Positions 1,355 through 37,064 of a stretch of 64,000 nucleotides of DNA are shown piece by piece. The translations under genes were made by a program, and so were the position numbers. Each line of letters opens with the position of its first letter. Positions within the stretch are counted from its first letter, which is position 1. The notes beneath the pieces were generated by a model, which was not told the origin of the DNA, made no database searches, and was given only the letters and a program-made list of their open reading frames with translations. Source of the DNA: Cyclobacteriaceae bacterium (GTDB lineage Bacteria > Bacteroidota > Bacteroidia > Cytophagales > Cyclobacteriaceae); the NCBI GenBank assembly GCA_019694875.1, contig JAIBBC010000001.1:310001-374000 (forward strand), read 5' to 3'.

Positions 1355-1370
1355 CATGATCTGAATCATA
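1355..1370. promoter_or_regulatory. Crp/Fnr-type operator A (CATGA-N6-TCATA)
   Basis: Palindrome CATGATCTGAATCATA between divergent genes. On the plus strand TACCTTGT (1392-1399) and on the minus strand TAGATTAG (1326-1333) are both centred exactly 33 bp from the palindrome centre, matching the Bacteroidota -7 box TAnnTTTG. Predicted to activate both the porin-ctaA unit and the membrane protein gene. Confidence 0.7.
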
Positions 1371-1420
1371 AGGACAGGCATTCGCTGAAACTACCTTGTT
1401 TTTTCAAATTTTCAGTGATC

Positions 1421-2695
1421 ATGCGTATCGCAATCACCGTGGCTTTCATACTGATCGCAGGTATTGCTAAAGGCCAGACCAAACTTGAAGTCAGTGGCGA
1501 TCTCAGAGCAAGAGCTGAGTATCGTCATGGTTTTGGTACGCTTGCAGCGAAGGATCAGCGTCCGGCATTTTTTGTCGACCAGCGCAGTCGCTTAATAGCG
1601 CATTACGTTGCATCCAGGTATGCTGTAAAATTGAGTTTGCAGGACGTTCGTGTTTGGGGTAATCAATCTCAGATGGTTCGTGAAGACGGAGCATTGACTG
1701 CAATGCATGAAGCATGGGGCGAAATATTTTTTACCCAAAAAATTTCCGCACGTCTTGGCCGCCAAGAGATCGCGATGGATGACCATCGAATATTTGGGAA
1801 TGTGGATTGGGCCATGCAGGCTCGAAGTCATGACGCGTTAGTGCTGAAGTATTTGAAAAGTCGATTTGAGGTACAAGCTGGTTTAGCTTTTAACCAAGAC
1901 AAGCCGCAGCTTGCAACCACCTATTATACCATCGCCAACAATTACAAAACATTCCAGTACCTATGGCTACACCATAATGACGATTCTTTTTCGTCAAGTG
2001 TTTTGTTCCTTAACAATGGCAAACAAGGAGGTACAATAGATGATTACAAGACTTACTACAGTCAGACTATCGGATTACGCTCAACGTATGCAAAGAAGCG
2101 CATCAAGCCAACTATCGCGTACTATCATCAGCTTGGAAACGAGGCGGACGACACTACCAACATTAACGCGTCCTATATTAATGTTGATTTGAAGTATCAA
2201 TTGTTCAGTTCGTTCAGCGTTAATGCAGGATGTGAGTTACTCAGCGGAAATGATCGGAAACCTTCGAAAGCAAATCGAGCTTTCAACCCGTTTTACGGAA
2301 CAAATCACAAGTTCAATGGCTTGATGGATTATTTCTACGTTGGCAATCATATCAATAATGTGGGACTCCGTGATTACTATTTCCATTTAAACTATCAAGG
2401 AAAAACATTTTCACCTGCTCTTCAATTCCACTTTTTCCAATCAGACGGTTTAGTCACAGACCCAGAGGACGGGTCGATAATGTCCAGATCGTTAGGTATG
2501 GAGTTTGACCTCGTCCTTCAATACAAATTCAATGAAGAAATAAAATTCGATGGTGGATACTCTCAATTTATTCAAACAAACACGTTGGAAGTTCTGAAGG
2601 GAGTCGATGCGGGATCAATGAACAACTGGGCATGGCTTATGGTTACGATCAAGCCTGTATTCTATAAAACTCCCGATCCTTCCAAGACTCCGTGA
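1421..2695 (+). CDS. Outer-membrane beta-barrel porin, alginate-export-like
   Basis: About 424 residues with an N-terminal signal peptide (hydrophobic run ending in AKGQ). I use the ATG at 1421; a GTG lies 6 bases earlier. The mature part opens with LEVSGDLRARAEYR and is rich in alternating aromatic strands, ending in a barrel-like strand pattern. This matches alginate-export/porin family proteins often found beside denitrification genes in Bacteroidota. It should sit in the outer membrane and pass small solutes or anions; the substrate is not visible. It is 3 bases upstream of ctaA, so the two are one operon from operator A. Confidence 0.65.
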   Translation: MRIAITVAFILIAGIAKGQTKLEVSGDLRARAEYRHGFGTLAAKDQRPAFFVDQRSRLIAHYVASRYAVKLSLQDVRVWGNQSQMVREDGALTAMHEAWGEIFFTQKISARLGRQEIAMDDHRIFGNVDWAMQARSHDALVLKYLKSRFEVQAGLAFNQDKPQLATTYYTIANNYKTFQYLWLHHNDDSFSSSVLFLNNGKQGGTIDDYKTYYSQTIGLRSTYAKKRIKPTIAYYHQLGNEADDTTNINASYINVDLKYQLFSSFSVNAGCELLSGNDRKPSKANRAFNPFYGTNHKFNGLMDYFYVGNHINNVGLRDYYFHLNYQGKTFSPALQFHFFQSDGLVTDPEDGSIMSRSLGMEFDLVLQYKFNEEIKFDGGYSQFIQTNTLEVLKGVDAGSMNNWAWLMVTIKPVFYKTPDPSKTP

Positions 2696-2698
2696 TGT

Positions 2699-3718
2699 AT
2701 GAGTGTTTCATCTAACAGTTGGATAAAGAAGTGGTTATGGTCAGGAATCGTTCTGATCATACTGATGATGATGGTTGGAGCAATTACACGCCTGACTGGC
2801 TCTGGATTATCAATTGTTGAATGGAAAGTGATCTCCGGAATCATCCCTCCGTTCACGGCTGAGGATTGGAATCTCACTTTCCTCAAATACAAACAGTTCC
2901 CGCAGTATCAGAAGTTGAATCACAATTTTGATGTCGAAGATTTCAAAAGAATATTCTGGTGGGAATACATACACCGTTTGCTTGGAAGAATAGTTGGATT
3001 GGCTTTTATCATACCATTTGCAGTGATCGTCACGCGAAAGCATGTCCCGCGTTGGTTGAAAGTAAGGCTTGTCGTGATTCTGTTTGCTGGAATCTGTCAA
3101 GGCATTATGGGTTGGCTAATGGTAAAGAGCGGGCTGGTTGACATGCCGCATGTTAATCACTTCCGGCTCGCTCTTCATTTGAGTTTTGCTTTCGGATTGA
3201 TTGCGCTGATCCTTTGGTTGATTTTCGATCTGGAGCACCCGCCAGGCCCAGCGCTGAAATGGAAATTCACGGCAGCACTATTGCCGGCATTTTGTCTTGT
3301 TGTAGTCGTCATCCAGATCATTCTCGGAGTGTTAGTCGCGGGCCTGAAAGCTGGATTTTCATACAACACCTTCCCCATGATGGAAGGCAGGTTTTTTCCG
3401 GATGCTATTAACTCTCAGGCAAGTTTTCTGTACAATGGAGTCGCTCTTCAATTCATACACAGATGGTTTGCCTGGTTTGCACTTGCGTGTGTTGTTTGGC
3501 TATGGATTGAATACCGCAGAAGATCTGGAGCTTTGTCTTCACCCGCGTCACCCGTAAACCTTCTTTTGTTCGTTGTGATCATCCAGTTGGTCATTGGCAT
3601 TCTCACACTTGTACTGAATGTGCCCATTGTACTAGCAGTCCTTCACCAGATGACAGCCGTACTTGCCTTTGGCTTACTTTTGAATCTCACTTACTTAGCA
3701 GGCTACCGATTAGATTGA
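2699..3718 (+). CDS. ctaA: Heme A synthase (COX15/CtaA family)
   Basis: 339 residues with about eight membrane helices. The family motifs are clear: GAITRLTGSGLSIVEWK near residue 27, EYIHRLLGR near 97, and later HVNHFRLALHLS, FIHRWFAW and LHQMTAVLAF, which supply the four heme-ligand histidines. It oxidises the heme O methyl group to make heme A for aa3-type oxidases in the inner membrane. It follows the porin gene by 3 bases and its end overlaps the convergent hemN end by 9 bases. Its place in an island otherwise devoted to NO/N2O and anaerobic functions is unexpected, because its product serves oxygen respiration. Confidence 0.93.
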   Translation: MSVSSNSWIKKWLWSGIVLIILMMMVGAITRLTGSGLSIVEWKVISGIIPPFTAEDWNLTFLKYKQFPQYQKLNHNFDVEDFKRIFWWEYIHRLLGRIVGLAFIIPFAVIVTRKHVPRWLKVRLVVILFAGICQGIMGWLMVKSGLVDMPHVNHFRLALHLSFAFGLIALILWLIFDLEHPPGPALKWKFTAALLPAFCLVVVVIQIILGVLVAGLKAGFSYNTFPMMEGRFFPDAINSQASFLYNGVALQFIHRWFAWFALACVVWLWIEYRRRSGALSSPASPVNLLLFVVIIQLVIGILTLVLNVPIVLAVLHQMTAVLAFGLLLNLTYLAGYRLD

Positions 3719-5086: not shown

Positions 5087-5105
5087 AATGAAGTTTACGC
5101 GCCTG

Positions 5106-5573
5106 TCAAAGAATATTTTTCACCACCGTATGGACCACGGGCCGCATAGTGACTTTTGACTTAATAGAATTTGAAATGAGACAGGCAGCCTCGGAGCGCT
5201 GCAGAACGCGGAGTGCTTTTTCGCGGTCTTCCTCATTCGATATTGTCACTTCCGGAAACAACACTATTTCAGTCATCAGAAATTTGCCATCAACCTGCTG
5301 AAGCTTTCCCTCAGATTTGCACTTGAAATCTGTGAATACAAGTTTCGAGTTCTCTGCAATCGCAAGAAAGGTTGTCATAAGGCAACTGCTCACTGCCGCG
5401 GTAAATAGATGTTCCGGAGACCAAATTCCAGCCACTCCTTTTGGAAATTCAGGCGGGGTTGCCACAGTAAGGCATCCGTTGTTTGCGGTAAAGTTGCCAA
5501 CCTCCGGTGAGCACATTTTCCCAACTCTGTCGTGTTCCCAGCTGATATCAACATTATAAGAGTGTGTTGTCAT
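5106..5573 (-). CDS. OsmC/Ohr family protein
   Basis: 155 residues. The two family cysteines are present: Cys64 in AVSSCLMTTF and Cys131 in SEAACLISNS, with the usual PEHLFTAA before the first. Members reduce organic peroxides with this Cys pair in the cytoplasm; some OsmC-like proteins have other thiol roles. It heads the unit with hemN and has the best operator/promoter arrangement in the window: a perfect palindrome with TAGGTTTG at the predicted -7 position (5596-5603). Confidence 0.85.
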   Translation of the reverse strand: MTTHSYNVDISWEHDRVGKMCSPEVGNFTANNGCLTVATPPEFPKGVAGIWSPEHLFTAAVSSCLMTTFLAIAENSKLVFTDFKCKSEGKLQQVDGKFLMTEIVLFPEVTISNEEDREKALRVLQRSEAACLISNSIKSKVTMRPVVHTVVKNIL

Positions 5574-5624
5574 GGTGTAATGAGTTTATCCATTGCAAAC
5601 CTAGCCGGATGCTTATCAACAATA

Positions 5625-5640
5625 TATGATCGCAGTCATA
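5625..5640 (-). promoter_or_regulatory. Crp/Fnr-type operator B
   Basis: TATGATCGCAGTCATA, perfect TATGA/TCATA arms. On the minus strand a perfect -7 box TAGGTTTG (5596-5603) is centred 33 bp downstream. Drives osmC-hemN. It lies just downstream of the ferredoxin stop codon. Confidence 0.8.
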
Positions 5641-5662
5641 TCAGCCCGATTTTCCCATGCTT

Positions 5663-7136: not shown

Positions 7137-7183
7137 TACATTCTACAAATGCGGACAAGGTTGAAACAAAACGCTTTTTGAAC

Positions 7184-7199
7184 TATGACTCGAATCATA
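7184..7199. promoter_or_regulatory. Crp/Fnr-type operator C (bidirectional)
   Basis: TATGACTCGAATCATA with perfect arms. A box TATTTTGG (7221-7228) on the plus strand and AACCTTGT (7155-7162) on the minus strand are each centred 33 bp from the palindrome centre. It would serve both the U32-ferredoxin and the GNAT-HPF units. The plus-strand start point would fall at about 7233, so the GNAT mRNA may be nearly leaderless. Confidence 0.7.
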
Positions 7200-7233
7200 G
7201 GCGGGTTTGTTTGTATAGATTATTTTGGGATTA

Positions 7234-11026: not shown

Positions 11027-11042
11027 TATGATTCAAATCATA
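11027..11042 (-). promoter_or_regulatory. Crp/Fnr-type operator D
   Basis: TATGATTCAAATCATA, perfect arms. Minus-strand -7 box TAATTTTG (10998-11005) is a perfect TAnnTTTG centred 33 bp away, upstream of the cytochrome c gene. Confidence 0.8.
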
Positions 11043-11109: not shown

Positions 11110-11125
11110 TATGATTCAGGTCATA
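11110..11125 (+). promoter_or_regulatory. Crp/Fnr-type operator E
   Basis: TATGATTCAGGTCATA, perfect arms. Plus-strand -7 box TATTTTTG (11147-11154) is a perfect TAnnTTTG centred 33 bp downstream. Drives ric, nrdJ and the first Crp/Fnr gene. Operators D and E lie back to back 83 bp apart. Confidence 0.8.
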
Positions 11126-11176: not shown

Positions 11177-11893
11177 ATGGAAACGGAAATAAAAAGTACT
11201 CTTGAGCAAGACGGTCTGACAGTTGCACAACTTGCTATCACACATCCAGGCGCACTCGCGGTGTTCACGAAATACAATATTGACTATTGCTGCGGAGGTC
11301 AGAGGAGTTTAAAGGAAGCATGCCATCGCATCGGGCTTGATCCCGACAAGATAAAAGCTGAAATAGAGGAGACACCACTGACGGGGTCGAATGAAAACTT
11401 CCATCCGGAAAGCTGGAGTTCCGCTTTTTTGGTTGACTACATACTGCAGAATCATCATTCTTATGTAAGAAAGGCGATACCCGAGTTAGAGCCGCTCCTT
11501 GACAGGGTTTGCGAACGACACGGAAATGATTGCTATGAATTACTCCAGATACGCGAGAGCTTTATTGATCTTGCCGAGGAACTTACGAGTCACATGCAGA
11601 AGGAAGAAACGATACTGTTTCCTGCAATCAAACAATACGATGACGAAAAACAGCCGACTGAAATTTCTGGCAATTTGAATGTGCCTATTCAGGTGATGGA
11701 GCATGAGCATGTTGTAGCGGGAGACCTCGTAAAGAAAATCAGATCTCTTTCGAACAATTATACACCACCCGATTTTGCTTGTCCCACCTTCCGGATCACT
11801 TATCAGAGACTGCAGCAATTTGACAACGATCTAATGAAACACATTCATTTGGAAAACAATATTCTATTCGAGCGTTTCAAGACAAAACAATAA
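11177..11893 (+). CDS. ric: Iron-sulfur cluster repair di-iron protein RIC
   Basis: 238 residues. The ScdA_N part has the canonical DYCCGG (Cys38, Cys39), and the hemerythrin-like bundle has all ligand motifs: NHHSYV, SHMQKEETILFP, EHEHVVAG and HIHLENNILF. RIC (ScdA/YtfE) restores [2Fe-2S] and [4Fe-4S] centres damaged by NO and oxidants in the cytoplasm. It is the first gene of an operon with nrdJ (34 bases later) and a Crp/Fnr gene, under operator E with a perfect promoter box. Confidence 0.93.
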   Translation: METEIKSTLEQDGLTVAQLAITHPGALAVFTKYNIDYCCGGQRSLKEACHRIGLDPDKIKAEIEETPLTGSNENFHPESWSSAFLVDYILQNHHSYVRKAIPELEPLLDRVCERHGNDCYELLQIRESFIDLAEELTSHMQKEETILFPAIKQYDDEKQPTEISGNLNVPIQVMEHEHVVAGDLVKKIRSLSNNYTPPDFACPTFRITYQRLQQFDNDLMKHIHLENNILFERFKTKQ

Positions 11894-13800: not shown

Positions 13801-14433
13801 ATGCATTCAACTACTGATAAAAAAAGAGCGGCAAAGGTAATCCCTTCGAGGATGCTTCAGAAGTATCGTGCGAAGCTGATTGAGCTCGTCAGTGACGAGA
13901 TATTGTTTCGTGTGGGGGATCCTGCAGCTGATTATTTTCAGGTCGAGGCTGGTAGCATAAAGACATCAGTCGTAAATCCGGAGGGTCATGAGTTTATTTT
14001 AGGAATCTATGAGCGAGGTGAAAGTTTTGGAGAAGCTGCGTTGATCGGAAAATATCCTCACCATGGAAACGCCTGTGCGATCGAGGCCTCAAAAGTCTGG
14101 CGAATGCCGGGAAATTTCTTTTTTCAAATGTTGAAAGAAAATTTTTCGAGCCACGTAAACATAGATCAGGTATTATGTCAGCGACTGAAATATAAATCGA
14201 TGGTACTAACCGAGGTCTCGAGTCACGCTCCTGAACATCGCATTCATTCGCTGTTGCAATACTTCAAAGCAAAGCATGGCGTCAACCAGAATTCCCAAAC
14301 GCTTACAATCCCTTATACCCGCCAACAGCTTGCGGATATGGTTGGACTCAGGGTGGAGACAGTTATTCGAACGGTGAAAAGAATGGAAAAGGAAGGAGTG
14401 CTTCAGCTACAAGGGCATAAAATAATTTTCTGA
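13801..14433 (+). CDS. Crp/Fnr family transcriptional regulator 1
   Basis: 210 residues: cyclic-nucleotide-binding-like beta roll (RVGDPAADYFQVEAGSIK, GESFGEAALIG), dimer helix, and C-terminal winged helix with recognition helix in TRQQLADMVGLRVETVIRTV. There is no N-terminal Cys cluster, so it is not an oxygen-sensing [4Fe-4S] FNR; an NO- or heme-sensing DNR/NnrR-like role fits the context. The recognition helix keeps the FNR Glu and Arg (VETVIR) but has Ile in place of Ser, consistent with a TATGA rather than TTGAT half-site. An 11-bp palindrome GGGAAATTCCC lies 7 bases before its start. Likely regulator of the island with its paralogue at 26170. Confidence 0.88.
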   Translation: MHSTTDKKRAAKVIPSRMLQKYRAKLIELVSDEILFRVGDPAADYFQVEAGSIKTSVVNPEGHEFILGIYERGESFGEAALIGKYPHHGNACAIEASKVWRMPGNFFFQMLKENFSSHVNIDQVLCQRLKYKSMVLTEVSSHAPEHRIHSLLQYFKAKHGVNQNSQTLTIPYTRQQLADMVGLRVETVIRTVKRMEKEGVLQLQGHKIIF

Positions 14434-15240: not shown

Positions 15241-15256
15241 TATGATTTTAATCATA
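15241..15256 (-). promoter_or_regulatory. Crp/Fnr-type operator F
   Basis: TATGATTTTAATCATA, perfect arms. On the minus strand TACATTCG (15212-15219) is centred 33 bp away, upstream of pdxH. No matching box is found at that spacing on the plus strand, so the haloperoxidase-like gene at 15344 is probably not a class II target. Confidence 0.7.
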
Positions 15257-17289: not shown

Positions 17290-17305
17290 TATGACTTCGA
17301 TCATA
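17290..17305. promoter_or_regulatory. Crp/Fnr-type operator G (bidirectional)
   Basis: TATGACTTCGATCATA, perfect arms. Plus-strand box TAAACTTG (17327-17334) is centred 33 bp downstream, before nadA. On the minus strand CCTATTTG (17261-17268) occupies the same position before queD, a weaker match. Confidence 0.7.
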
Positions 17306-20310: not shown

Positions 20311-20326
20311 TATGACAAAAGTCATT
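20311..20326 (-). promoter_or_regulatory. Crp/Fnr-type operator H
   Basis: TATGACAAAAGTCATT; one arm perfect, the other TCATT. It overlaps the stop codon of the upstream gene at 20322. Minus-strand box TACTCTCG (20282-20289) is centred 33 bp away. Confidence 0.55.
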
Positions 20327-22190: not shown

Positions 22191-22206
22191 TATGATTCAA
22201 GTCATA
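22191..22206 (-). promoter_or_regulatory. Crp/Fnr-type operator I
   Basis: TATGATTCAAGTCATA, perfect arms, 49 bp upstream of the 606-residue gene. At the expected -7 position the minus strand reads TTGTTTTA (four of six matches); TAAATTCG lies 6 bp further on. Confidence 0.65.
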
Positions 22207-22351: not shown

Positions 22352-24679
22352 TTAGACCTGGGCTGTGACCTCCAGGTCTTTTTCCGTTGCGACCAAATTC
22401 GCAGAGATCGGTTTCAAGTTCCGCGAAGATTTGATGATGATTAACACAAGCGGAAAAACTCCTCCAATGGTGAAAATTGTTCCCCCAACAATTCTCAACC
22501 ATGTCAGTGTCTGAAAACTATTTTGTTCAATAAATTCATTCGACCTCGCGTACCACATTCCATGCTCAACAACGGCCATGAATTGCAAGACTCCTGCTGG
22601 AAACAAATCGAGTAAGATCATTAGCATCAATCCCACGTTGATTGACCAAAATGAAAGTTTCGTCAGCGCAGGTCTCCATCCAACATTTTCAGTAAGCAAC
22701 TTTGAACAGAATAGAACTCCGGCAATTGAAAGGTTTCCGTAAACTCCCATCAGAGCAGCATGTCCGTGATTTACCGTTAGGTATGTTCCATGCTCATAAT
22801 AGTTTGTTAACGGAAGATTAATAATAAAACCCATGACGCCAGCGCCAAAGAAATTCCAGAAGTTCACTCCCACCAGAAAGAGGAAAACATCAGACATGCC
22901 GAATTGAATTCCTTTATGGTCACCGTTGCCATTGCTCATGTTTTTCGTTGCTAATTTTGGTAGCTTTTGAAAACGCCAGGCCTCAAGTGTAAGAAGAATT
23001 AAGGGCACGACTTGCAGTGTGGAGAAGACCGAACCAAGGGCCATGGTCGCAACTGGCTTTGCGTTCCAATAAAAATTATGTGAAATACCCAGAAGCCCTG
23101 ATCCCAGAAATAATAAAGTGGCAAGGTATATTACTCTTACCGCAGATTCCTTGCTGACAAGTCCCATCAATATCATGAAGTAGCCCACAAGTACAGTGGT
23201 GAAGACTTCAAAAAAAGCTTCCGCCCACATGTGGATTACACACCATCTCCAAAAATCTGCGATGACAAAATTCGTTTTAGGAGTTGCAATGAATCCAGAT
23301 ATTAACAATATCAGAATGCTGAACGTAGCGTATACAAGCCAGTTGGGAAGTTCCCATGGTTGCCTCAGGGAAATTGCTGGCCTCAGTGCTTTGTATAATG
23401 TCACGGCCCATAATGCAAAAATTACAAAGAGAAGACCTTGCCATATTTTACCGGGCTCAACATATTCCCATCCCTGATTTCCAAGCCAATACCAATAATC
23501 AGTTAGACCCATTGGTCCAATGTAAATTCCAACAATTGAACCTGCGACCAAAGTGAATACAAGCCAAAACAAAATGTTGATATACATCCTGTACCCTGAC
23601 GGCTCTTTGGTAATGAACGGGGTAACGAATAGCGAAGCGCCTATCCAGCAAGCGGATATCCAAAGTAGGGAAAGTTGTACGTGCCACCCCCTTGTTATTG
23701 TAATAGGAAAGAGATCTCTTAGATCGTAACCAAAGAAGACAGTAAAATTTACAAAGTCATGGACTGTTAGAATTCCGGCCAGCACCTGGAATAGCAACAC
23801 GAAGATGGCAGCATAAAAGAATTTGAAGGTGGCTTTTTGTGCTGCTGTCGGGTTGAATTTATTAACTCCTTTGAGTGTCATTAGGGGCCTGGAATTATCC
23901 AGGAATGTACGGTCACTGAGTTTTTCTAACCTTCCGTGATAGAACAGAACAATACCGAGTGCGAGCACGAGTCCTAGCGACCCTATAATTGTCCAGATAA
24001 TGACAGGAGTTTCTGGTAGGTTGCCTGCATCAGGATCGTACGGCCAATTGTGTGTGTAACTGTAGCTTTCTCCTGGTCTTTTTACACTACAAACCCACGC
24101 GCCCCAGTAGAAAAATGCAGTCAACTTCTCAATCGACCCATCTCCTGATATGTAACCATTTTTCAATGACTTCTGCCCGGATGCGCCCTTGAAATACTCT
24201 CTATAAAACTCAACCAGTCGATTGCAAGCATACTCTTGAGCAGGCGTGAGCTTTACAGCGTTGGAAGATTTTTCGTATCGGTTTTCCTTCAACTCTCTTT
24301 TAACTTGTTCCTTTACCCCAAGAAATGCCAGTTTGCTTAGATCTGGTTGGTTTTGATAATACTCTTCAATGTAAACGGTAACCTGATGGAGACTTTGTGC
24401 TGTGAAGTCCGGACCTCGATTCGCGCCATCACCAAACATGCTACCAAAATCCATTAGCGCCAGACGTTGAAAAGTAGCCTGGCCATCAAGGATGTCATCC
24501 GCTGTAAAAATATTTTCGCCTGATTCGCTTATAAAAGTTGGAATCGGTGGCGCTTCATAATACGTTTCATACCCAATGATACCTACCCCTGTAAAGCTCA
24601 CAACAAATATGAAGGTGAGGGGTATCCACCATTTCTCCGGGTTCATGAGAAAGTGAATAAATCCTTTCTTTGGTTCCAT
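22352..24679 (-). CDS. norZ: Quinol-dependent nitric oxide reductase (qNor)
   Basis: 775 residues. An N-terminal periplasmic cytochrome-c-like domain without heme motif (YETYYEAPPIPTF to about residue 220) is fused to the NorB catalytic core of twelve helices, as in quinol NO reductases. Heme and non-heme iron ligands are in TRGWHVQLSLLW, HMWAEAFFEVF and NHGHAALMGVYGN. It reduces 2 NO to N2O in the inner membrane using menaquinol. It stands alone under operator J. The N2O formed is the substrate of the nos operon downstream. Confidence 0.95.
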   Translation of the reverse strand: MEPKKGFIHFLMNPEKWWIPLTFIFVVSFTGVGIIGYETYYEAPPIPTFISESGENIFTADDILDGQATFQRLALMDFGSMFGDGANRGPDFTAQSLHQVTVYIEEYYQNQPDLSKLAFLGVKEQVKRELKENRYEKSSNAVKLTPAQEYACNRLVEFYREYFKGASGQKSLKNGYISGDGSIEKLTAFFYWGAWVCSVKRPGESYSYTHNWPYDPDAGNLPETPVIIWTIIGSLGLVLALGIVLFYHGRLEKLSDRTFLDNSRPLMTLKGVNKFNPTAAQKATFKFFYAAIFVLLFQVLAGILTVHDFVNFTVFFGYDLRDLFPITITRGWHVQLSLLWISACWIGASLFVTPFITKEPSGYRMYINILFWLVFTLVAGSIVGIYIGPMGLTDYWYWLGNQGWEYVEPGKIWQGLLFVIFALWAVTLYKALRPAISLRQPWELPNWLVYATFSILILLISGFIATPKTNFVIADFWRWCVIHMWAEAFFEVFTTVLVGYFMILMGLVSKESAVRVIYLATLLFLGSGLLGISHNFYWNAKPVATMALGSVFSTLQVVPLILLTLEAWRFQKLPKLATKNMSNGNGDHKGIQFGMSDVFLFLVGVNFWNFFGAGVMGFIINLPLTNYYEHGTYLTVNHGHAALMGVYGNLSIAGVLFCSKLLTENVGWRPALTKLSFWSINVGLMLMILLDLFPAGVLQFMAVVEHGMWYARSNEFIEQNSFQTLTWLRIVGGTIFTIGGVFPLVLIIIKSSRNLKPISANLVATEKDLEVTAQV

Positions 24680-24728: not shown

Positions 24729-24744
24729 TATGACTCCAGTCATA
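24729..24744 (-). promoter_or_regulatory. Crp/Fnr-type operator J
   Basis: TATGACTCCAGTCATA, perfect arms, 49 bp upstream of norZ. Minus-strand TACTTTAC (24700-24707) is centred 33 bp away. Confidence 0.75.
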
Positions 24745-26050: not shown

Positions 26051-26066
26051 TATGAGCTTGATCATA
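26051..26066 (-). promoter_or_regulatory. Crp/Fnr-type operator K
   Basis: TATGAGCTTGATCATA, perfect arms, 69 bp upstream of the proline dehydrogenase gene. The -7 box at the standard spacing is poor (CATATTGT), so activation by the class II layout is less certain here. Confidence 0.5.
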
Positions 26067-26127: not shown

Positions 26128-26143
26128 ACTGACTTTTGTCATA
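26128..26143 (+). promoter_or_regulatory. Weak Crp/Fnr-type operator L upstream of regulator 2
   Basis: ACTGACTTTTGTCATA: one perfect arm, one degenerate. AACCTTTG (26165-26172) lies at the exact 33-bp spacing. If it is the -7 box, transcription would begin at about 26177, after the TTG start, so a GTG start at 26185 would be needed. Autoregulation is possible. Confidence 0.4.
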
Positions 26144-26169: not shown

Positions 26170-26781
26170 TTGAAAAAAGAAAAAGTGATACCTGCTCAGC
26201 TTTTCGAAAAATTCAAGGCTCGTCTTGTTAGTGTCCAAAAAGGCCAAACCTTGTTTGACGAAGGCGATCCTGCCAATGATTTTTTTCAGGTCGCTTCCGG
26301 TCAAATTAAAATGTCCATTCTTAATCCGGATGGTCAGGAATTTACTCAGGGAATTTTCAACGCTGGAGAGAGTTTTGGCGAGCCAGCGCTGCTAGGTGGT
26401 TTCCCTTATCCAAGCAGTGCCCAGGCAACGGAGGAGAGTAAGGTATGGCGCTTGCCCAAGCACGAGTTTCTAGAGCTTCTACGAGAAAATTTTGATGTAC
26501 ACCTAAAGTTAAATCAGGTTCTGTGCAAAAGACTACAGTACAAGTCGATGATTTTAACCGAAGTCTCATCGTATGATCCTGAACACCGGCTGGTAACTAT
26601 CCTCAAATATTTCAAGAGTAAAATCAAAAAGAAGGATGGAGAGGAAAGTCTTGTTATTCCGTTTACTCGTCAGCAACTTGCGGATATGACCGGTTTGCGT
26701 GTTGAAGCTGTCATCCGGGCAGTGAAAAAAATGGAGAAAGACGGGAGGCTAAAACTTCAAGGACATAAGATTACGATTTAA
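26170..26781 (+). CDS. Crp/Fnr family transcriptional regulator 2
   Basis: 203 residues from a TTG at 26170; GTG at 26185 is an alternative and no in-frame ATG exists upstream of the domain. Beta-roll motifs (DEGDPANDFFQVASGQIK, GESFGEPALLGG) and the winged helix TRQQLADMTGLRVEAVIRAV match regulator 1 closely along the whole length, so the two are paralogues, probably by duplication. No N-terminal Cys cluster. Nearly the same recognition helix predicts the same or overlapping DNA target. Convergent with the truncated haemoglobin gene. Confidence 0.85.
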   Translation: MKKEKVIPAQLFEKFKARLVSVQKGQTLFDEGDPANDFFQVASGQIKMSILNPDGQEFTQGIFNAGESFGEPALLGGFPYPSSAQATEESKVWRLPKHEFLELLRENFDVHLKLNQVLCKRLQYKSMILTEVSSYDPEHRLVTILKYFKSKIKKKDGEESLVIPFTRQQLADMTGLRVEAVIRAVKKMEKDGRLKLQGHKITI

Positions 26782-27746: not shown

Positions 27747-27762
27747 TATGATCAGAATCATA
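27747..27762 (-). promoter_or_regulatory. Crp/Fnr-type operator M
   Basis: TATGATCAGAATCATA, perfect arms, in the 69-bp gap between nosY and the fasciclin gene. Minus-strand AATATTAG (27718-27725) holds the -7 position (four of six matches). Confidence 0.65.
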
Positions 27763-27766: not shown

Positions 27767-28534
27767 CTAAAGATCTTTTTTACTGAAAATTCGGAGCGAG
27801 ATACTAAATGGAATGATGATCCACAAACAGAGCACAACGGTTGAAAGTACTACACCGAGGCTGCTACCAAAGAAGTCTTTATAGAAAGCCCCCGTGTATC
27901 CCATTAGTGCCGAGATATCCAACTGCAAAAGCATGATTACGCGTGCGAGATCAACTGGATTGAGTGCAATAAGGGTTAACGTGATTTTCTCAAGTGGATA
28001 ATCGCTAAAAGCATAGACAAACCACAAAAGGAATCCATCGTAAATCAATGAGAAATAGAACCAGAACAGCAAGGCAATACCTATCGCCTTCGCTTTATCG
28101 CGTGTTAATACTGAGGCAAGAAACGCAAGGGATACGAACCCCATTGTTAGTATTACTCCGCAAAACAACAATGTCAATGCCGTGAAACTTGCTCCATGCA
28201 GAAAAATTGGAATGCCACAGCCAATCAGGAATGCAATGCACAGTGATGATACCACAGCCAGGTATTCGCCAATGAAGATAACCTTCCTGTCAATAGGCTG
28301 GGCAAGCATCAATTCGATAAACTCGTACGAATTGTAAAAATGAATTGTGGTGAAGACTATGCTGATCAAAGGAATTACCATAAGAACGATGTTCAGCAAG
28401 CTCATTACAACTTTGTCTGCGTCACTGTCAATCTGGAACATTGCAAACGTGCTGACAAATAGAAGGGCCGTATAAAGAACAATAAACCTTGTCCTTAACA
28501 TGTCATAAAATACGTATTTGATAATCCGGTTCAT
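27767..28534 (-). CDS. nosY: Nos ABC transporter permease
   Basis: 255 residues with six membrane helices and no ATPase domain; ABC-2 type permease sequence (FEPYVL-like replaced here by EFIELMLAQPIDRKVIF near residue 70). Position directly behind nosF (2-base gap) and nosD identifies it as NosY. NosFY with NosD is needed to load the copper-sulfur centre of NosZ in the periplasm. Confidence 0.9.
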   Translation of the reverse strand: MNRIIKYVFYDMLRTRFIVLYTALLFVSTFAMFQIDSDADKVVMSLLNIVLMVIPLISIVFTTIHFYNSYEFIELMLAQPIDRKVIFIGEYLAVVSSLCIAFLIGCGIPIFLHGASFTALTLLFCGVILTMGFVSLAFLASVLTRDKAKAIGIALLFWFYFSLIYDGFLLWFVYAFSDYPLEKITLTLIALNPVDLARVIMLLQLDISALMGYTGAFYKDFFGSSLGVVLSTVVLCLWIIIPFSISLRIFSKKDL

Positions 28535-28536
28535 CG

Positions 28537-29265
28537 CTACTTGTTTATTGATTCAATTAACTCTTTCTGTCCAATCATCGTTGCAATCGCTTTTCCAAGT
28601 TTCTGTTCACTGGTCTCCTCTTTTAATGAAGTAATTGAGTTATTGAAATGGACTTTGCCTTCGAACAAGTAAACCATGTCGGTTGTCAATTCATCCAGAT
28701 CGCTAAGGATGTGAGAAGAGACGATGATCAGTTTTCCGTTTTCCTTCTCCACCAGAATTTTCGCTTTAAGAAGTTCGACTGATACCGGGTCGAGTCCCGC
28801 AGTTGGTTCGTCAAGTATCAGGGCTGGGGGATTAAAAAGAAATGCAAGGGCTGCACTTACTTTTTGGCGAGTGCCTCCAGAGAGGGTGTGCATTCTTTTG
28901 TCATACATCTTAAAGAGTTTGAATTCATCAATAAGCTGCTCATCAAATTCTGATACATTCTTTCGGATATTCTTCATCATGTCGATAATCTGACCGATGG
29001 TCATGTTTTCGGGATAGTGACCGATCTGAGGCATGTATCCAATCTTCTCCCTGTATTTCCAATCATTTTTGATCGAAACATTGTCGAACAGAATATCCCC
29101 GGTAGAAGGGATCACCATGCCGAGAATACTTTTTATAAGCGTTGTCTTGCCCGAACCGTTTGGACCAACCAGCGCATAAGATTTCCCTTTGCACAGATCA
29201 ATGCTTACATTGTTAAGCACCATTAGTTTGCCGAAGGTCTTGTTAACTTCTTTTATTGAGATCAT
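28537..29265 (-). CDS. nosF: Nos ABC transporter ATPase
   Basis: 242 residues. Walker A GPNGSGKTTL near residue 35, signature LSGGTRQKV, Walker B ALILDEPTAGLDP and the switch His in IIVSSHILSDL. It energises NosY for maturation of NosZ. Its start overlaps the end of nosD by 23 bases, indicating translational coupling. Confidence 0.93.
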   Translation of the reverse strand: MISIKEVNKTFGKLMVLNNVSIDLCKGKSYALVGPNGSGKTTLIKSILGMVIPSTGDILFDNVSIKNDWKYREKIGYMPQIGHYPENMTIGQIIDMMKNIRKNVSEFDEQLIDEFKLFKMYDKRMHTLSGGTRQKVSAALAFLFNPPALILDEPTAGLDPVSVELLKAKILVEKENGKLIIVSSHILSDLDELTTDMVYLFEGKVHFNNSITSLKEETSEQKLGKAIATMIGQKELIESINK

Positions 29266-30505
29266 AAGGTTTCATTAAAGGGGAATTGTCTTTCAAATTC
29301 TCAGGAGTAATTGCCGGGATTGCTTTCTCTGCTTTGTCCATAAGCAACACGAGGAAACTTCTCCATAACAATACAGCCGAGGGCATTTGCTCAACTACCA
29401 TTGAATACAAGCTTACCGGGTGAAAAGGAACATCACCAATCAAGTCTTTATTCAGGTCGTACCCTTCGTACTTGTCCCAGTAATTGCCCTCGACTTTGTT
29501 GAGAACTAAGGTTCCGTTGGTGGCGAGGTCAAAAGTGTTTGCTGAAAAATTGTTTTTGGAAAATGTGTTGTCATCACAGCTAGCCTGGAGCCTGATCGCG
29601 TAACCATTTTGCTTGAATTCATTTTCGGTGAATTGGATCCGACTTGAACCTTCCATAAAAATGCCAACACTGTTTCCCACAAAATGATTATTCCGGACTT
29701 CGCTGTCACGAATGTCTTTCAATAGCAATCCATAGGAAGAGGAGCCCCAGTTATGTTTAAACGTATTGTTAATCATCTTGACTCCTGTAGTGTACATTAC
29801 CGCCACTCCAGCACCGTTTTTGCTAAAAGTGTTTTCTCTGTATTCGTTATTGTGAGAGAACATAAAGTGCAGGCCGTATCGAATGTTTCCCTCGCTGAAA
29901 TTTTTTGTGATCAGGGAGTTGGTTACGAATTCAAAATAGATTCCGTCCCTATGACCCTTGATTGTATTATTATTTATTGTAATATGATTGCATTTCCAGA
30001 GGTGAATACCATTTCCGATTTGGTGTTCGGCTTCAGCATCTGATTCGAGCTGATTATCTTCGATCCACGATTGTGAAGAGTTTGAGAAATGGATGCCGAA
30101 GAAAGTATTTTCAAATCGATTGTTAATAATTCGCAATCTCTTTGAGTCTAATACTTTGATAGCCGCCAGATCGTTGATGCTCGCAACGCCTGTATTAATA
30201 AATTTCAATCCTTTTATTGTAACGTCATTGGCATGAATGGTGAAAATCTCGTATTTGTTATCTCCATCCAATACAGGGAAATTTTCGCCAATGATGGTCA
30301 GGCTTTTTTCGATTATGATATTACCTTCTAGATATCTTCCGGATTCGATGAGCAAAGTATCACCAGGGTTGGCAAGAGCGATAGCCTGCTTTAAATTTTT
30401 TACCTGTCCTGTTCGACCTACGGTTATAGTGTTGCAGTATGCTGCGAAGCAACAAAAAGTTAAAAAAGTAAATATTGTTAAAAGTCTCATTTTGTTGTCG
30501 CACAA
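29243..30505 (-). CDS. nosD: Nitrous oxide reductase maturation protein NosD
   Basis: 420 residues with a signal peptide (FLTFCCFAAYC). Most of the protein is a right-handed beta helix with repeated N-N-x-F/I turns (INNRFENTFFG, IEDNQL, INNNTIKGH, YRENTFSKNG), the CASH/NosD fold. A short hydrophobic C-terminal segment follows (SAVLLWRSFLVLLMD). It acts in the periplasm in sulfur/copper delivery to the CuZ site. Part of the nos operon between nosL and nosF. Confidence 0.93.
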   Translation of the reverse strand: MCDNKMRLLTIFTFLTFCCFAAYCNTITVGRTGQVKNLKQAIALANPGDTLLIESGRYLEGNIIIEKSLTIIGENFPVLDGDNKYEIFTIHANDVTIKGLKFINTGVASINDLAAIKVLDSKRLRIINNRFENTFFGIHFSNSSQSWIEDNQLESDAEAEHQIGNGIHLWKCNHITINNNTIKGHRDGIYFEFVTNSLITKNFSEGNIRYGLHFMFSHNNEYRENTFSKNGAGVAVMYTTGVKMINNTFKHNWGSSSYGLLLKDIRDSEVRNNHFVGNSVGIFMEGSSRIQFTENEFKQNGYAIRLQASCDDNTFSKNNFSANTFDLATNGTLVLNKVEGNYWDKYEGYDLNKDLIGDVPFHPVSLYSMVVEQMPSAVLLWRSFLVLLMDKAEKAIPAITPENLKDNSPLMKPYDLNKRS

Positions 30506-30542
30506 AAATTCAGATGTTAAGGAGTGTCCTAACCTGAAATCA

Positions 30543-31559
30543 TCATTTAAATTGTGTTTGTAACTCTCCCCAGCTCAACAGAATTCCATTCCATTCATCG
30601 TTCAATTTTTTAAGATCTTCGTTAGACTCGAAAGCCGCGACATTGCTTGCCATCGGGCTCTTGATAGATTCGGACTTCACGTAAAGTGCATTTCGCGCAT
30701 CGATCAGTTTTCCTGGTTTTGAAAAATCAACGATCAGAATCTCCTTCATTTCGTCTGCATGCACCATACCGCTATTGTAAAAATTTAGCATACAATTAGC
30801 ATCATCGAACTTATAGATTTTGCCTTTTGATGTTACGAGTTCCGCACCAAATTTATTATCCATGAGCGTCATTTTGCAAGCATGACATCCGTCTTTCCCG
30901 AATTGCAATGGCTCAGGTTCAGCTTTGCATGCTGCCAAAGACAAACAAAGTAAAATTATCATCGCTGTTGTAATCTTCTTTTTTTCCATCTTCGATTTAT
31001 AGATTTCGAAAATAAGCGCACCGATAGCCATGATACCTGAAACCAGGAATATCCATCCGCCTATTGCTGGGCCGGAGTATGCGGTAAAATTCAATAGTTG
31101 TTTTGTTCCGATGAGCGGAGGCTGATAAGACATGCCCGGAACAACGATGGGTGCTGTAGGATCAAGGTTATGGCCATAGTCATATCCCCAGACGTAAAAG
31201 TCTACCAATGCGGCAATGCCACCTGCGACAATCACAGTTGCAAAGAGAACAAGCATAAGCCGCCTGTTTACAATTGCAGTGAGAACTCCTATCGCGATCA
31301 TCGTACCTACGATGTAGACCATGTACTTAAATTCCGGGAACATACTTACCTCGATGTGCTTCATGCCAATGTAGTGATTGAGAGCACTGATGATTCTCAC
31401 ATCGCCAGTTAGATTGTCAATCCAGATTTTCATGGAGAGACCTTCCGGATATTGTGGCGCCCACATCAGAATCTCCCACAATGGTACATAATAGGCTGAT
31501 ATCATCGAAAGGGCTGATAGCAGGATTAGTATTCGTGATATCGGTTTCAGTTTTTTCAT
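30543..31559 (-). CDS. nosL: NosL fused to an N-terminal four-helix membrane domain
   Basis: About 338 residues from the ATG at 31559 (the frame is open 21 codons further but that part is not protein-like). Residues 1-190 hold four membrane helices. Met191 then begins what looks like a complete lipoprotein signal, with LSLAAC at its end (Cys211), followed by the NosL domain with GCHACKM (225-231) and KFDDANCMLNFYNS. NosL is a copper chaperone for NosZ. Either this is a real fusion with an internal lipoprotein-like segment, or an internal start at 30989 gives separate NosL. The neighbouring genes are nosZ and nosD. Confidence 0.88.
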   Translation of the reverse strand: MKKLKPISRILILLSALSMISAYYVPLWEILMWAPQYPEGLSMKIWIDNLTGDVRIISALNHYIGMKHIEVSMFPEFKYMVYIVGTMIAIGVLTAIVNRRLMLVLFATVIVAGGIAALVDFYVWGYDYGHNLDPTAPIVVPGMSYQPPLIGTKQLLNFTAYSGPAIGGWIFLVSGIMAIGALIFEIYKSKMEKKKITTAMIILLCLSLAACKAEPEPLQFGKDGCHACKMTLMDNKFGAELVTSKGKIYKFDDANCMLNFYNSGMVHADEMKEILIVDFSKPGKLIDARNALYVKSESIKSPMASNVAAFESNEDLKKLNDEWNGILLSWGELQTQFK

Positions 31560-31636
31560 CCTGTTCGGTTTTAAAGTAGGCCCCGGTCTTATTAATGGTA
31601 AGCCGGGGCCATCAACCTGCAAACTATGAATTTGAT

Positions 31637-33622
31637 CTATTGATCAGCGCCAGTCGTCTGATCTTCGATTTTTCCGGTTGAGTATTTTGTAGGCACGTTA
31701 CTGCCAGGAGCCGAGACACGTGCGTAGCCTTGCATTTCCTGGTGGAGTGCAGAGCAGAAGTCGGTGCAATAGAAGGGAAATACACCAATTCTATCTGCTT
31801 TCCATTTTAAAGTCTGTGTTTCACCCGGCATAATTAGTATCTCAGCATTATTGGCGCCTTTGATCGCAAAACCATGCGGAACATCCCAGTCTTGTTCAAG
31901 GTTAGTAACGTGGAAGTAGACATCATCACCTTGCTTGATACCTTCGATGTTATCAGGTGTAAGGTGTGAACGAATGGCTGTCATGTAAACATGCACTTCG
32001 TTGCCTTTTCTTTCCACTTTTGTTTTGCCTTCGCCCAATGCTGCGTAGGGGTGCTTATTATCCTCCAGCTTGTATATTTTTTGAGATTTAGGCATTAACA
32101 TCTCCGCTGGGATGGATTCAGCATAGTGAGGTTCACCATTTGTTGGAAAGTCAAGGATCAATTTCATCTTGTCACCACTGATATCGTACAACTGAGCTGA
32201 CTGCGTTAATTCCGGACCGGTTGGGAGGTAGCGATCTTTTGTGATTTTATTGTACGCTACAACATACTTGCCATGAGGCTTCCTGGTTGGCCCTCCGGGC
32301 ACACTCAAGTGACCGATTGAATAGTAAGTCGGAACGCGATCCAAAACTTTCAGATCCTTAACATTCCATTTTACGATCTCAGACGAAACGAACATCGAGG
32401 TGTACGCGTTTCCTTTTTCATCAAACTCGGTGTGCAATGGTCCGAGTCCAGGCTTTGGAACTTCACCATACAGAGCGGATTCATACTTCACCACAGGTAT
32501 TCCTGCAAAATCTCCTTCGAAGTCTTTCTTGCTGATCGCGTCCATAAGTTTGGTGAAGGAAAATACCGGAATTGTTGCCGCAAGCTTTCCGCTTGCTACA
32601 ATATATTCTCCTGACGGATCAACATCACAACCGTGGGGTGATTTAGGACATGGAATAAAGTAAAGAATATCTTTCAATTCGGCAGGATCAAGTTGCAGTA
32701 CTTCTTCCAGAATTTTAGAGCTTGAAAGATGCGTACTCTCATCGAGCGTATTATGTGCATATTTGGTTTTAACGCTTTTTCCTTTTCCTGCTTTGATATA
32801 TTCCTCTGCTTTTTTCCAGTTCACCGCCATGATAAAGTCTTTGTCCTTTTGGGAGGCATTAACCTCTAACAAAGTGTAAGCTTGCTCGGTATTGTATGTT
32901 GAGAAAAAGAACCAACCATGTGACGGACCTTTACCTGCGCGAGCTAAATCAAAGCTTACACCGGGGGTAATGAGCTGGAAGGCAATATTCATGTGACCCG
33001 ATGTATCCACTTTAATAAAGCTTACTGTGCCTTTGAAATTTTCTTTAAAGGAGCTGATGGGAACATCTAAATTGTTACCGATAGGAACACTAAAACGCGT
33101 ACTGGCCACAACGTATTCCGTATTTTCAGTGATGTATGGAGAAGAGTGATTGCCACCGCTGTTTGGTATTTCAAGGATCTCAACTGTCTTGAAAGTTTTC
33201 AAATCAACCCGTGCAACCCGCGGAGTATTGTTACCGTTTGCGAAGGCCCAACGGCCATCATGCTCTCCGTTGGTTGTTGACAGTGAAATGTGGTGCAAAT
33301 CGTCCCACGGTACAAAACCGTTGGCCGTATTTAGCATCGGCTTGCTTTCTTCACTGTAGCCATAACCATTTTCGGTGAATGTTGAGAAGACAGGAATGAT
33401 CTTCAACAAACGACCTGATGGAAGTCCATATACACCAATCTGACCATTGAATCCTCCGGAGACTATGTTGTAGAATTCGTCATACTTTCCTGGTGCGACA
33501 TATGCCCTAGATGCGGCATCGCCCGTTATTGCTTCTTTCGGACCTGATGGCTTACAACTGTATATGGAGAATGCCGTGATTATTCCAGCTATTCCCCATA
33601 AAATTTTATGTACCGTTTTCAT
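31637..33622 (-). CDS. nosZ: Nitrous oxide reductase, clade II
   Basis: 661 residues. The N-terminus has a Sec lipoprotein-type signal (FSIYSCK, Cys23), not a Tat signal, which with the NosL/D/F/Y order marks clade II. A seven-bladed propeller holds CuZ ligands (WDDLHHISLS, GGNHSSPY, CPKSPHGCDVDPSG, GPLHTEFDEKG, KPHGKYVVAYNK, EPHYAES), and the C-terminal cupredoxin has the CuA set CTDFCSALHQEM. It reduces N2O to N2 in the periplasm or at the membrane. Electrons probably come from the upstream cytochrome c; no NosR is present. Confidence 0.96.
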   Translation of the reverse strand: MKTVHKILWGIAGIITAFSIYSCKPSGPKEAITGDAASRAYVAPGKYDEFYNIVSGGFNGQIGVYGLPSGRLLKIIPVFSTFTENGYGYSEESKPMLNTANGFVPWDDLHHISLSTTNGEHDGRWAFANGNNTPRVARVDLKTFKTVEILEIPNSGGNHSSPYITENTEYVVASTRFSVPIGNNLDVPISSFKENFKGTVSFIKVDTSGHMNIAFQLITPGVSFDLARAGKGPSHGWFFFSTYNTEQAYTLLEVNASQKDKDFIMAVNWKKAEEYIKAGKGKSVKTKYAHNTLDESTHLSSSKILEEVLQLDPAELKDILYFIPCPKSPHGCDVDPSGEYIVASGKLAATIPVFSFTKLMDAISKKDFEGDFAGIPVVKYESALYGEVPKPGLGPLHTEFDEKGNAYTSMFVSSEIVKWNVKDLKVLDRVPTYYSIGHLSVPGGPTRKPHGKYVVAYNKITKDRYLPTGPELTQSAQLYDISGDKMKLILDFPTNGEPHYAESIPAEMLMPKSQKIYKLEDNKHPYAALGEGKTKVERKGNEVHVYMTAIRSHLTPDNIEGIKQGDDVYFHVTNLEQDWDVPHGFAIKGANNAEILIMPGETQTLKWKADRIGVFPFYCTDFCSALHQEMQGYARVSAPGSNVPTKYSTGKIEDQTTGADQ

Positions 33623-33656
33623 TTTTATTTATTGTATTAGTTAGTGGGATATAGTT

Positions 33657-34130
33657 CTATTTTTCGCCATCATTTTGCCTCATGAATTCAAGTATGTCCC
33701 GGGCATCGCCAACACTCACATTCTGGTTCGGCATGCGCATCAGGCACAACTCAAGAAGTTTTTGCGCTTCCGGGTCTTTGTCAAGCATTACGTCTACGTT
33801 TGTGATCATATTCATAATCCACTCTGGTTTTCTCCGGGTGGTTATATCTTTCCAGCCTGGTCCGACAACACGCTGATCGTTTAGCTTATGGCAAGCCTGG
33901 CATTTCATTTCGTAAATTGCCAGTCCACGGCCGATCCTATCCTGTTCAAGAGGGGTTTTTAGGGTAACCTCTTTTACCTCGCCAAGGCCCCTGCCTTCGT
34001 CAACTTTTTTGGGCGTCTCTGGAGTTTCATAGTCGCCATAGCCATCATCGGCTTTTTCTTCTTTTGGTTTTTCGTTACCGCATGAGGCGAGCATTGCGAA
34101 AAGGATAACTAAATGAAACAGCTTTTTCAT
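33657..34130 (-). CDS. Cytochrome c lipoprotein heading the nos operon
   Basis: 157 residues. Lipoprotein signal ASCGN (Cys17), an acidic Pro/Glu/Lys linker to about residue 60, then a class I cytochrome with CQACH (77-81), VVGPGWKDITTR and Met ligands in LCLMRMPNQN. Such small c-type cytochromes precede nosZ in clade II clusters and are thought to be its electron donor. First gene after operators N and N2. Confidence 0.9.
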   Translation of the reverse strand: MKKLFHLVILFAMLASCGNEKPKEEKADDGYGDYETPETPKKVDEGRGLGEVKEVTLKTPLEQDRIGRGLAIYEMKCQACHKLNDQRVVGPGWKDITTRRKPEWIMNMITNVDVMLDKDPEAQKLLELCLMRMPNQNVSVGDARDILEFMRQNDGEK

Positions 34131-34212: not shown

Positions 34213-34228
34213 TATGACTCAAATCATA
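34213..34228 (-). promoter_or_regulatory. Crp/Fnr-type operator N (nos operon)
   Basis: TATGACTCAAATCATA, perfect arms. Minus-strand TACTTTAG (34183-34190) is centred 34 bp away. Predicted main activator site for cytochrome c-nosZLDFY. Confidence 0.75.
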
Positions 34229-34235
34229 GTTAAAA

Positions 34236-36565: not shown

Positions 36566-36606
36566 ATTAGTATGTCTTCCATAACGTTTTCGAGATTCCA
36601 TGCACA

Positions 36607-37004
36607 TCAAATGTGAAGTCCGAGCGTTTGTGACTGGAACATAAACTTGCGAATCGCAAGTTCTTCATCTTCGATGAGGTGCCTGATTCCAATATACTTC
36701 AATCCTTGGTCATGGTTATTTAAGACCGGCATTATGAGGGCTTGTACCAGTAATGCGAGCCATCTTTTGCACGGTTCTTAATTATACCTCTGAACGTTTT
36801 GCCCTCCGCAATGGTTTTCCACAGTATTTCGAACAACTTTTTGGGCATATCCGGATGTCTGATAATGCTATGTGGTTGCCCAATTAGCTCGTCCTTTGAG
36901 TACTTTGAAATCTCACAGAAGACTTCATTGGCGAATAAAATATATCCCCGCTCATCCGCTTCTGAATATAACGTTACTAACTTCGATCGGGTGTCGTTGT
37001 GCAT
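36607..37004 (-). pseudogene. Aer-type PAS domain protein, frameshifted
   Basis: The first frame (ATG 37004) encodes 90 residues of a PAS domain: [50 protein letters not shown], then stops just after YKPS. The remaining part of the same domain continues one frame over: [19 protein letters not shown], then IEDEELAIRKFMFQS, ending at 36607. One base missing in the CCC at about 36744-36746 would explain it. The pattern is that of aerotaxis-type PAS domains (Aer). Either a broken redox-sensing protein or a sequencing error at a homopolymer. Confidence 0.75.
36644..36662. repeat. Perfect 19-bp inverted repeat
   Basis: AACTTGCGA-A-TCGCAAGTT, nine-base arms around one base. It lies inside the 3' part of the broken PAS gene and about 80-100 bp before the NnrS-like start, so it may be an operator. 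It is unlike the TATGA-N6-TCATA sites. Confidence 0.6.
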
Positions 37005-37048
37005 TACATTTGAAAAATGTAATGCTACAACTTACCCCTATAAAGGGA

Positions 37049-37064
37049 ACTGATAAAAGTCATG
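37049..37064 (-). promoter_or_regulatory. Weak Crp/Fnr-type operator O
   Basis: ACTGATAAAAGTCATG; both arms depart from consensus. TAGCATTA (37020-37027) is at the 33-bp spacing on the minus strand. Upstream of the PAS/NnrS-like unit. Confidence 0.35.

Follow-up and report, generated by a model that had tools for sequence, protein, structure and literature searches.

The described systems closest to the one reported here are the regulators CRP, FNR, DNR and HcpR. Sites of CRP are of the type TGTGA-N6-TCACA, and FNR, which has the recognition helix V-E-T-x-x-R, occupies a class II position at approximately -41.5. According to the sections of PMC1274295 drawn on here, the box of E. coli FNR is TTGATnnnnATCAA, DNR of Pseudomonas has CTTGATnnnnATCAAG before nirS, nirK, norB and nosZ, and a consensus is also given for the CRP-like HcpR. 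For HcpR2, sections of PMC1274295 and PMC12750200 list GTAACnnnnGTTAC in most Bacteroides, another motif in Porphyromonas, and a regulon consisting of hcp alone in most Bacteroides and P. gingivalis. We analysed a window of 64,000 nucleotides (64 kb) from a Cyclobacteriaceae bacterium (GCA_019694875.1, contig JAIBBC010000001.1), of which the first 37 kb, here called the island, carry genes for the handling of nitric oxide (NO) and nitrous oxide (N2O) preceded by the palindrome TATGA-N6-TCATA. We confirm this palindrome and its fixed distance from a TAnnTTTG box, the -7 element of Bacteroidota promoters. The first interpretation of the locus, a defined operator with class II-like spacing and a putative reader with an FNR-type helix carrying Ile, is supported by the sequence comparisons. 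Very probably TATGAYYnnRRTCATA is the operator of an FNR/DNR-like clade of Crp-family class II activators that would govern an NO/N2O regulon.

A palindrome at fixed promoter spacing

Exact TATGA-N6-TCATA occurs 11 times in the window and every copy lies within the island (starts are given in the feature list below); palindromes with one mismatch are found at 1355 and 20311. In the own genome (4.68 Mb on 5 contigs) there are 16 exact sites, against 6 for a reversed control pattern, and 11 of the 16 fall into 37.1 kb, or 0.8% of the genome (binomial p = 3e-20, for a stretch that was picked after sight). An unbiased palindrome scan, in which all 1024 5-bp arms were counted with 13 spacers (0-12), ranks TATGA with a spacer of 6 (TATGA/6) first in 1-37100, with 11 seen against 0.085 expected (Poisson p = 4e-20); it is absent from the five palindromes listed for the remaining window (37100-64000). 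The palindromes that a preliminary description had placed before the island genes are thus real. Its statement that the site combines CRP-like spacing with an FNR/DNR-like context describes no contrast, because both known boxes share a GA-N6-TC core.

The site recurs around homologous regulators. A search of 148 family genomes with the second of the two Crp/Fnr proteins of the island (regulator 2) finds 56 with a match at E 1e-20 and, among them, 34 at 1e-39 or below; one match has an internal stop. TATGA/6 ranks first in 20 family regulator neighbourhoods (377 kb), with 36 seen against 0.70 expected. Among the best 80 regulator matches in named genomes, several of which are on the same contigs as an earlier locus set, an exact site is present in 61: in 49 of the 60 mostly Cytophagia-type loci (81 sites against 1.7 expected), 9 of 14 Flavobacteriia loci (9 against 0.5), 3 of 5 Ignavibacteria/Chlorobi-type loci (3 against 0.04, two being near-copies) and 0 of 1 Spirosoma loci. 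The pattern is not confined to the island, to which the preliminary description had tied the regulon. After removal of identical flanks, 113 distinct sites from 102 sources were retained, all selected for exact arms; by greedy open reading frame (ORF) calling 105 of them are intergenic, whereas 14% of random positions are. Although selection was on the arms alone, the spacer is biased toward pyrimidines at 6-7 and toward purines at 10-11, and judged from this alignment the predicted operator is better written TATGAYYnnRRTCATA.

An origin of the motif by chance or from the base composition of the island has practically no probability left. Hits with two mismatches are in only modest excess (51 against 37 +/- 6 in shuffles), but exact sites are approximately 129-fold over expectation in the island and 48-fold in the 60 mostly Cytophagia-type loci, and they are intergenic with a fixed promoter spacing. 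The unbiased scans of island and regulator loci rule a chance motif out.

Promoter geometry in the island was scored over 16 oriented promoters: the 1355 site plus all 11 exact sites, with four of these counted once per direction. The set excludes 20311, 26128, 34236 and 37049, as well as 11027 and 11110 in their far directions. The better TAnnTTTG score at +33 or +34 bp from the palindrome centre averages 4.25 of 6, against a mean of 2.11 +/- 0.31 and a maximum of 2.88 at other offsets, and the box reaches at least 5/6 in 7 of the 16. It had been described as 33 bp from the centre and perfect at three operators, which agrees with scores of 6/6 at 5625(-), 11027(-) and 11110(+); the 34-bp spacing at the nos operon holds as well (5/6 at +34 for 34213(-)). 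In the comparative set, 131 oriented promoters have a box (at least 5/6) at +33 in 52 cases and at +34 in 23, in none at both (75/131), and between +20 and +49 no further offset has a box in more than 3. A thinned set, with downstream stretches less than 50% alike, gives 40 of 85 at +33/+34 and at most 3 at other offsets, and sites with one arm mismatch, which are outside the 113-site set, have it in 17 of 33 orientations, against 3 at the next best offset. For near-sites that fall within genes the figures are 1 and 1 of 34. Between operator and box, no further conserved column is found in the 131 promoters.

As the preliminary description proposed, this is the spacing of a class II activator, judged by the fixed distance from operator centre to -7 box, which would place the centre near -41. 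More precisely, the operator would be centred near -40.5/-41.5, because transcription is assumed to start about 7 bp past the box centre. We propose that Crp-family activators of a clade spanning Bacteroidota and Ignavibacteria/Chlorobi-type bacteria would bind the palindrome as a dimer at this position and recruit RNA polymerase to the TAnnTTTG box by class II activation. A palindrome, a fixed -7 box and no other conserved element are what a class II Crp/Fnr activator needs. It might be argued that these proteins bind chiefly as repressors or act in mixed ways, with a spacing that stems from an older promoter design, and a centre around -41 would indeed overlap the place of the -33 element, where a repressor could act too. 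Nonetheless, a box fixed at +33/+34 in the full, thinned and one-mismatch sets is as expected for polymerase contact, and the promoters have nothing else between operator and box that would enable them to fire unaided. We consider this reading very unlikely.

The regulators and their association with the site

Three regulator paralogs are encoded in the own genome, at 13801 (regulator 1), 26170 (regulator 2) and C3:618554. The third is 62% identical to regulator 2 and adjoins a second nos cluster on C3 (L062, C3:611000-627000, at 214-8145), which gives this genome two nosZ genes. The order in that cluster is cytochrome c, fasciclin-like, NosZ, two ORFs where NosL would be, then NosD, NosF and NosY (NosZ named by model, the others by eye), and its first gene has an operator with one mismatch 66 bp upstream and a 4/6 box at +33. 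The two Crp/Fnr proteins with an Ile-bearing helix that were described initially do have the FNR-type helix carrying Ile, but they belong to three paralogs and not to a pair. Four of the five genomes listed for genus g90 (G159, G240, G352 and G407) have 3-7 regulator matches per genome.

Regulators 1 and 2 match PF00027 and PF13545 over the gathering score, which assigns them to the Crp/Fnr superfamily. With 57 and 52 bits they stay below the NCBIfam cut-offs for FNR (NF008365, 228 bits) and for the CRP equivalog (NF008732, 266 bits). Val178, Glu179 and Ile182 are invariant in 83 of 83 aligned regulator proteins and Arg183 is present in 81. At the place of Ile182 FNR has Ser and CRP has Gly. 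PMC1274295 links CRP residue 180 with the position occupied by G in CRP-like boxes and by T in FNR-like ones; the equivalent in the new regulators, matched by eye, is Val178, and the corresponding operator base is A.

Cysteines are few: counted over the homologous part only, so that protein ends may be missing, 14 of the 83 proteins have none and 38 have one, as does regulator 2. A [4Fe-4S] FNR identity was ruled out, as no conserved cysteine set exists among the 83. The column of the cAMP-phosphate Arg of CRP, which we take to be Arg82 (matched by eye), is Pro in 82 proteins and His in 1. Two near-invariant histidines, H111 (81/83) and H139 (77/83), may be haem ligands, as candidates only. 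The signal would be NO, perhaps sensed through haem, rather than O2 via an FNR iron-sulfur cluster; NO is the likelier of the two because of the targets and the lack of cysteines. In a comparison with PDB sequences, DNR scores highest of the bacterial regulators (87 bits), followed by CRP (80 bits); the first row overall, with 89 bits, belongs to a large eukaryotic protein that aligns through its cyclic-nucleotide-binding part. The structure model of regulator 2 (predicted local distance difference test, pLDDT, 85) has an ordinary Crp fold and matches CRP folds.

The number of sites follows the regulator. Exact Y..R sites average 4.97 in the family genomes with a close regulator (n = 34) and 2.87 in the others (n = 114, including 22 with more distant regulator matches; p = 2e-5). 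The reversed control gives p = 0.47, and removal of the own genome p = 4e-5. Likewise, an exact Y..R site is present in 12 of 16 nosZ neighbourhoods from genomes with the regulator and in 5 of 20 from genomes without (p = 0.006), the latter being 20 loci out of 82 such genomes.

A different owner of the site, for example another Crp-like protein, with the site travelling along with the genes, has to be weighed at this point. The nosZ loci classed as without regulator are themselves enriched (TATGA/6 is the top word, with 8 exact-arm sites against 0.46 expected), so a related regulator other than this one may also use the site, and more distant Crp-family homologs with 29-34% identity are present in the family. 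Against this, the site number tracks regulator presence in the 148 family genomes, the regulator gene lies downstream of the site in 18 of 131 oriented cases, and one of the five loci that have exact sites but were classed as without regulator encodes a divergent relative. In this locus (L247, operators at 5415, 5986 and 12486) the relative at 14407-14982 is 31% identical, falls under the search threshold and has the helix IETVIR, hinting at a wider clade that may read the same site. Another of these loci, L237, has a 24%-identical relative with Phe at the Ile place. We regard ownership by another regulator as very improbable and retain the FNR/DNR-like activator clade as the reader.

Besides the enrichment in these loci, several observations speak against the activator clade or its breadth. 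No exact site is present in the flank examined for 19 of the 80 best named loci, and TATGA/6 drops to third and fourth place in the two smaller sets, those of Flavobacteriia and Ignavibacteria/Chlorobi. The counts are not independent events, because arms were selected exact and many promoters are orthologous. A box at +33/+34 also occurs in 12 of 93 orientations without a called downstream gene start. By genome, nosZ over the TIGR04246 cut-off is linked only modestly to the regulator (17/32 with it against 82/264 without, p = 0.017), so nosZ does not require the regulator in every genome, and the regulator also occurs in genomes that do not carry nosZ. Finally, DNR is ahead of CRP by only 7 bits, and the 50 best Foldseek matches are mostly cAMP-type CRPs, with DNR not among these 50.

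Predicted operators and target genes

The features of the island are as follows; box scores refer to TAnnTTTG.

1355..1370, unstranded: operator CATGATCTGAATCATA with one mismatch, before the porin gene 1415-2695; TACCTTGT scores 4/6 at +33 toward the plus-strand gene
5625..5640, minus strand: exact operator before the OsmC-like gene 5106-5573 (by eye); TAGGTTTG, 6/6 at +33
7184..7199, unstranded: exact operator between a U32-peptidase gene (minus) and a GNAT-like gene (plus); TATTTTGG, 5/6 toward plus, 3/6 toward minus
11027..11042, minus strand: exact operator before the cytochrome c gene 10173-10955; TAATTTTG, 6/6 at +33
11110..11125, plus strand: exact operator before the row Ric/YtfE, NrdJ-like, regulator 1; TATTTTTG, 6/6 at +33
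11177..11893, plus strand: Ric/YtfE iron-sulfur repair protein (TIGR03652, 244 bits, cut-off 205)
13801..14433, plus strand: Crp/Fnr regulator 1 (cNMP_binding and HTH_Crp_2)
15241..15256, minus strand: exact operator between a PNPOx-like ORF (minus) and a PAP2-domain gene (plus); TACATTCG, 5/6 toward minus, 3/6 toward plus
17290..17305, plus strand: exact operator upstream of nadA-nadB, with a PTPS-like gene in the divergent direction (all by eye); TAAACTTG, 5/6 toward plus, and CCTATTTG, 4/6 toward minus
20311..20326, unstranded: one-mismatch palindrome between converging genes (nadB end 19932, end of the gene for a 606-amino-acid (606-aa) protein 20322)
22191..22206, minus strand: exact operator before the 606-aa gene 20322-22142; TTGTTTTA, 4/6 at +33, with 5/6 words at +39 and +48
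22352..24679, minus strand: nitric oxide reductase NorB (PF00115 and PF22085)
24729..24744, minus strand: exact operator before norB 22352-24679; TACTTTAC, 4/6 at +33
26051..26066, unstranded: palindrome with exact arms between proline dehydrogenase (minus) and regulator 2 (plus); 1/6 toward plus and 3/6 toward minus, the fixed box geometry being found in neither direction
26128..26143, plus strand: weak palindrome with two mismatches, a possible promoter site of regulator 2; AACCTTTG, 5/6 at +33
26170..26781, plus strand: Crp/Fnr regulator 2 (the real start may be a GTG near 26185)
27747..27762, minus strand: exact operator before the fasciclin-like gene 27152-27697 (by eye); AATATTAG, 4/6 at +33
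27767..34130, minus strand: nos operon of cytochrome c, NosZ, NosL, NosD, NosF and NosY (NosZ identified by model, the rest by eye)
34213..34228, minus strand: exact operator before the nos operon; TACTTTAG, 5/6 at +34

A palindrome had been claimed before nearly every transcription unit. This fails for 20311, which lies between converging genes and so has no target gene: in the one direction examined its box scores 3/6 at +33, 4/6 at +34 and 5/6 at +43, and no gene start was found downstream. It is probably not an operator. The three weaker sites proposed fare differently: 26128 has its box, 34236 has none (score 3/6), and 37049 scores 4/6 with poor palindrome arms. Island sites thus precede norB, cytochrome c and the U32-peptidase gene, plus nadAB and OsmC (by eye), and a HemN-like gene (3710) follows the OsmC-like gene in the same direction. 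The PNPOx-like ORF behind an operator (14793-15197, minus strand) is only 134 aa long and perhaps truncated.

With the Y..R preference added, 11 exact sites remain in the own genome, 10 of them in the island. At most one mismatch to TATGAYYnnRRTCATA is found at 25 places, 13 in the island (10 exact and 3 others, of which 31169 is inside the NosL gene) and 12 outside; of the latter, 2 are in the second nos cluster, 8 inside ORFs and 2 not inside ORFs. An exact-arm site at C1:261317 (L063:8318), with a 5/6 box TAATTTTC at +33, lies approximately 68 bp upstream of an MBL-fold-like gene, which is likely a regulon member outside the island. This gene was named by eye and is possibly a persulfide dioxygenase. 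The site at C1:2016607 precedes a permease-like gene (by eye) with a 4/6 box. Exact-arm sites lacking Y..R number 4 outside the island, one of them (L067) inside an ORF.

Among the 131 oriented genes, 93 match window proteins and 38 do not. Targets are the nos cytochrome c in 24 cases, Ric/YtfE in 23, the regulator in 18, fasciclin in 8 and the 606-aa protein in 5, the rest occurring 1-2 times each. From the 38 unmatched targets, 13 (groups or singles) were scanned against Pfam, and two gave no Pfam match. A Cu-oxidase/cytochrome c fusion in L146 and its near-copy L139 is likely NirK; further Pfam names include TauE, ribonucleotide reductase and cytochrome c, while genes such as a peptidase S9, an epimerase and a member of the erythromycin-esterase family have no evident link. 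In the Flavobacteria locus L156 the target is a 97-aa protein upstream of a globin-like gene. The regulator flanks in the best 80 named loci contain NosZ in 43, truncated globin in 34 and Ric in 33. The regulon would accordingly comprise respiration and repair functions for nitrous and nitric oxide (nos, nor, Ric and truncated globin), joined in the own genome by several oxygen-independent enzymes, and the regulator gene itself would often be a target.

Copies of the 606-aa protein, 59-70% identical, lie within 10 kb of a regulator in eight named loci. The protein of the island (20322-22142, minus strand) has no Pfam or NCBIfam match and no relative among PDB sequences (one chance row, E 0.14), and its structure model is poor (pLDDT 63). 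Foldseek gives weak leads, none at E 0.001, which include flavin mononucleotide (FMN) TIM-barrel enoyl reductases such as PfaD (E 2.7e-3).

Comparison with known systems

A gene for NosZ over the TIGR04246 cut-off is present in 99 of 296 sampled Bacteroidota genomes. In a full-text literature search, the titles and abstract starts among the matches listed name no regulator or operator for Bacteroidota nos genes. A 2021 bioreactor study (PMC8510549) relied on established matrices for Crp/Fnr; for its Ignavibacteria, Flavobacteriales and Saprospiraceae bins it reports no evidence that denitrification is under the control of Crp/Fnr proteins. Both the protein family and this kind of promoter logic have been described before, whereas the operator, the clade and the regulon appear undescribed in the literature searched. 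On balance we favour the wider view that a separate NO/N2O regulator, apart from FNR, DNR, NnrR and HcpR, is spread across Bacteroidota and Ignavibacteria/Chlorobi-type bacteria; reading TATGAYYnnRRTCATA by a Val-Glu-x-x-Ile-Arg helix, it would be the missing switch of many N2O reducers, with a regulon readable from genomes.

With the operator and its fixed spacing defined, the control of N2O consumption by these bacteria can be tested directly. The operator predicts how N2O-consuming Bacteroidota switch on their nos and NO genes, as well as new regulon members, the 606-aa protein among them. The Crp/Fnr recognition code gains a case, in which the base is G, T or A and the residue Gly (CRP), Ser (FNR) or Ile.

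Compared with CRP, the arm spacing and the fold are the same, but A replaces G at the second arm base and Pro replaces the cAMP-phosphate Arg. HcpR and HcpR2 are likewise Crp/Fnr regulators of the NO response, HcpR2 from the same phylum, although the NO signal is here only presumed; the TATGA motif differs from the HcpR2 operator GTAACnnnnGTTAC. As far as PMC1274295 gives them, the operators of HcpR, HcpR2, DNR and NnrR all differ from the TATGA site. FNR shares the centre-to-arm geometry, and the new regulators have an FNR-like helix, yet with Ile where FNR has Ser. DNR shares the Crp/Fnr fold and the denitrification and NO-handling targets. The arrangement TTGATnnnnATCAA before nir/nor/nos, which characterises DNR, is replaced here by an arm TATGA with A where the DNR/FNR half-site has T, while geometry and targets are similar; and whereas DNR belongs to Pseudomonas, the present regulators come from different phyla.

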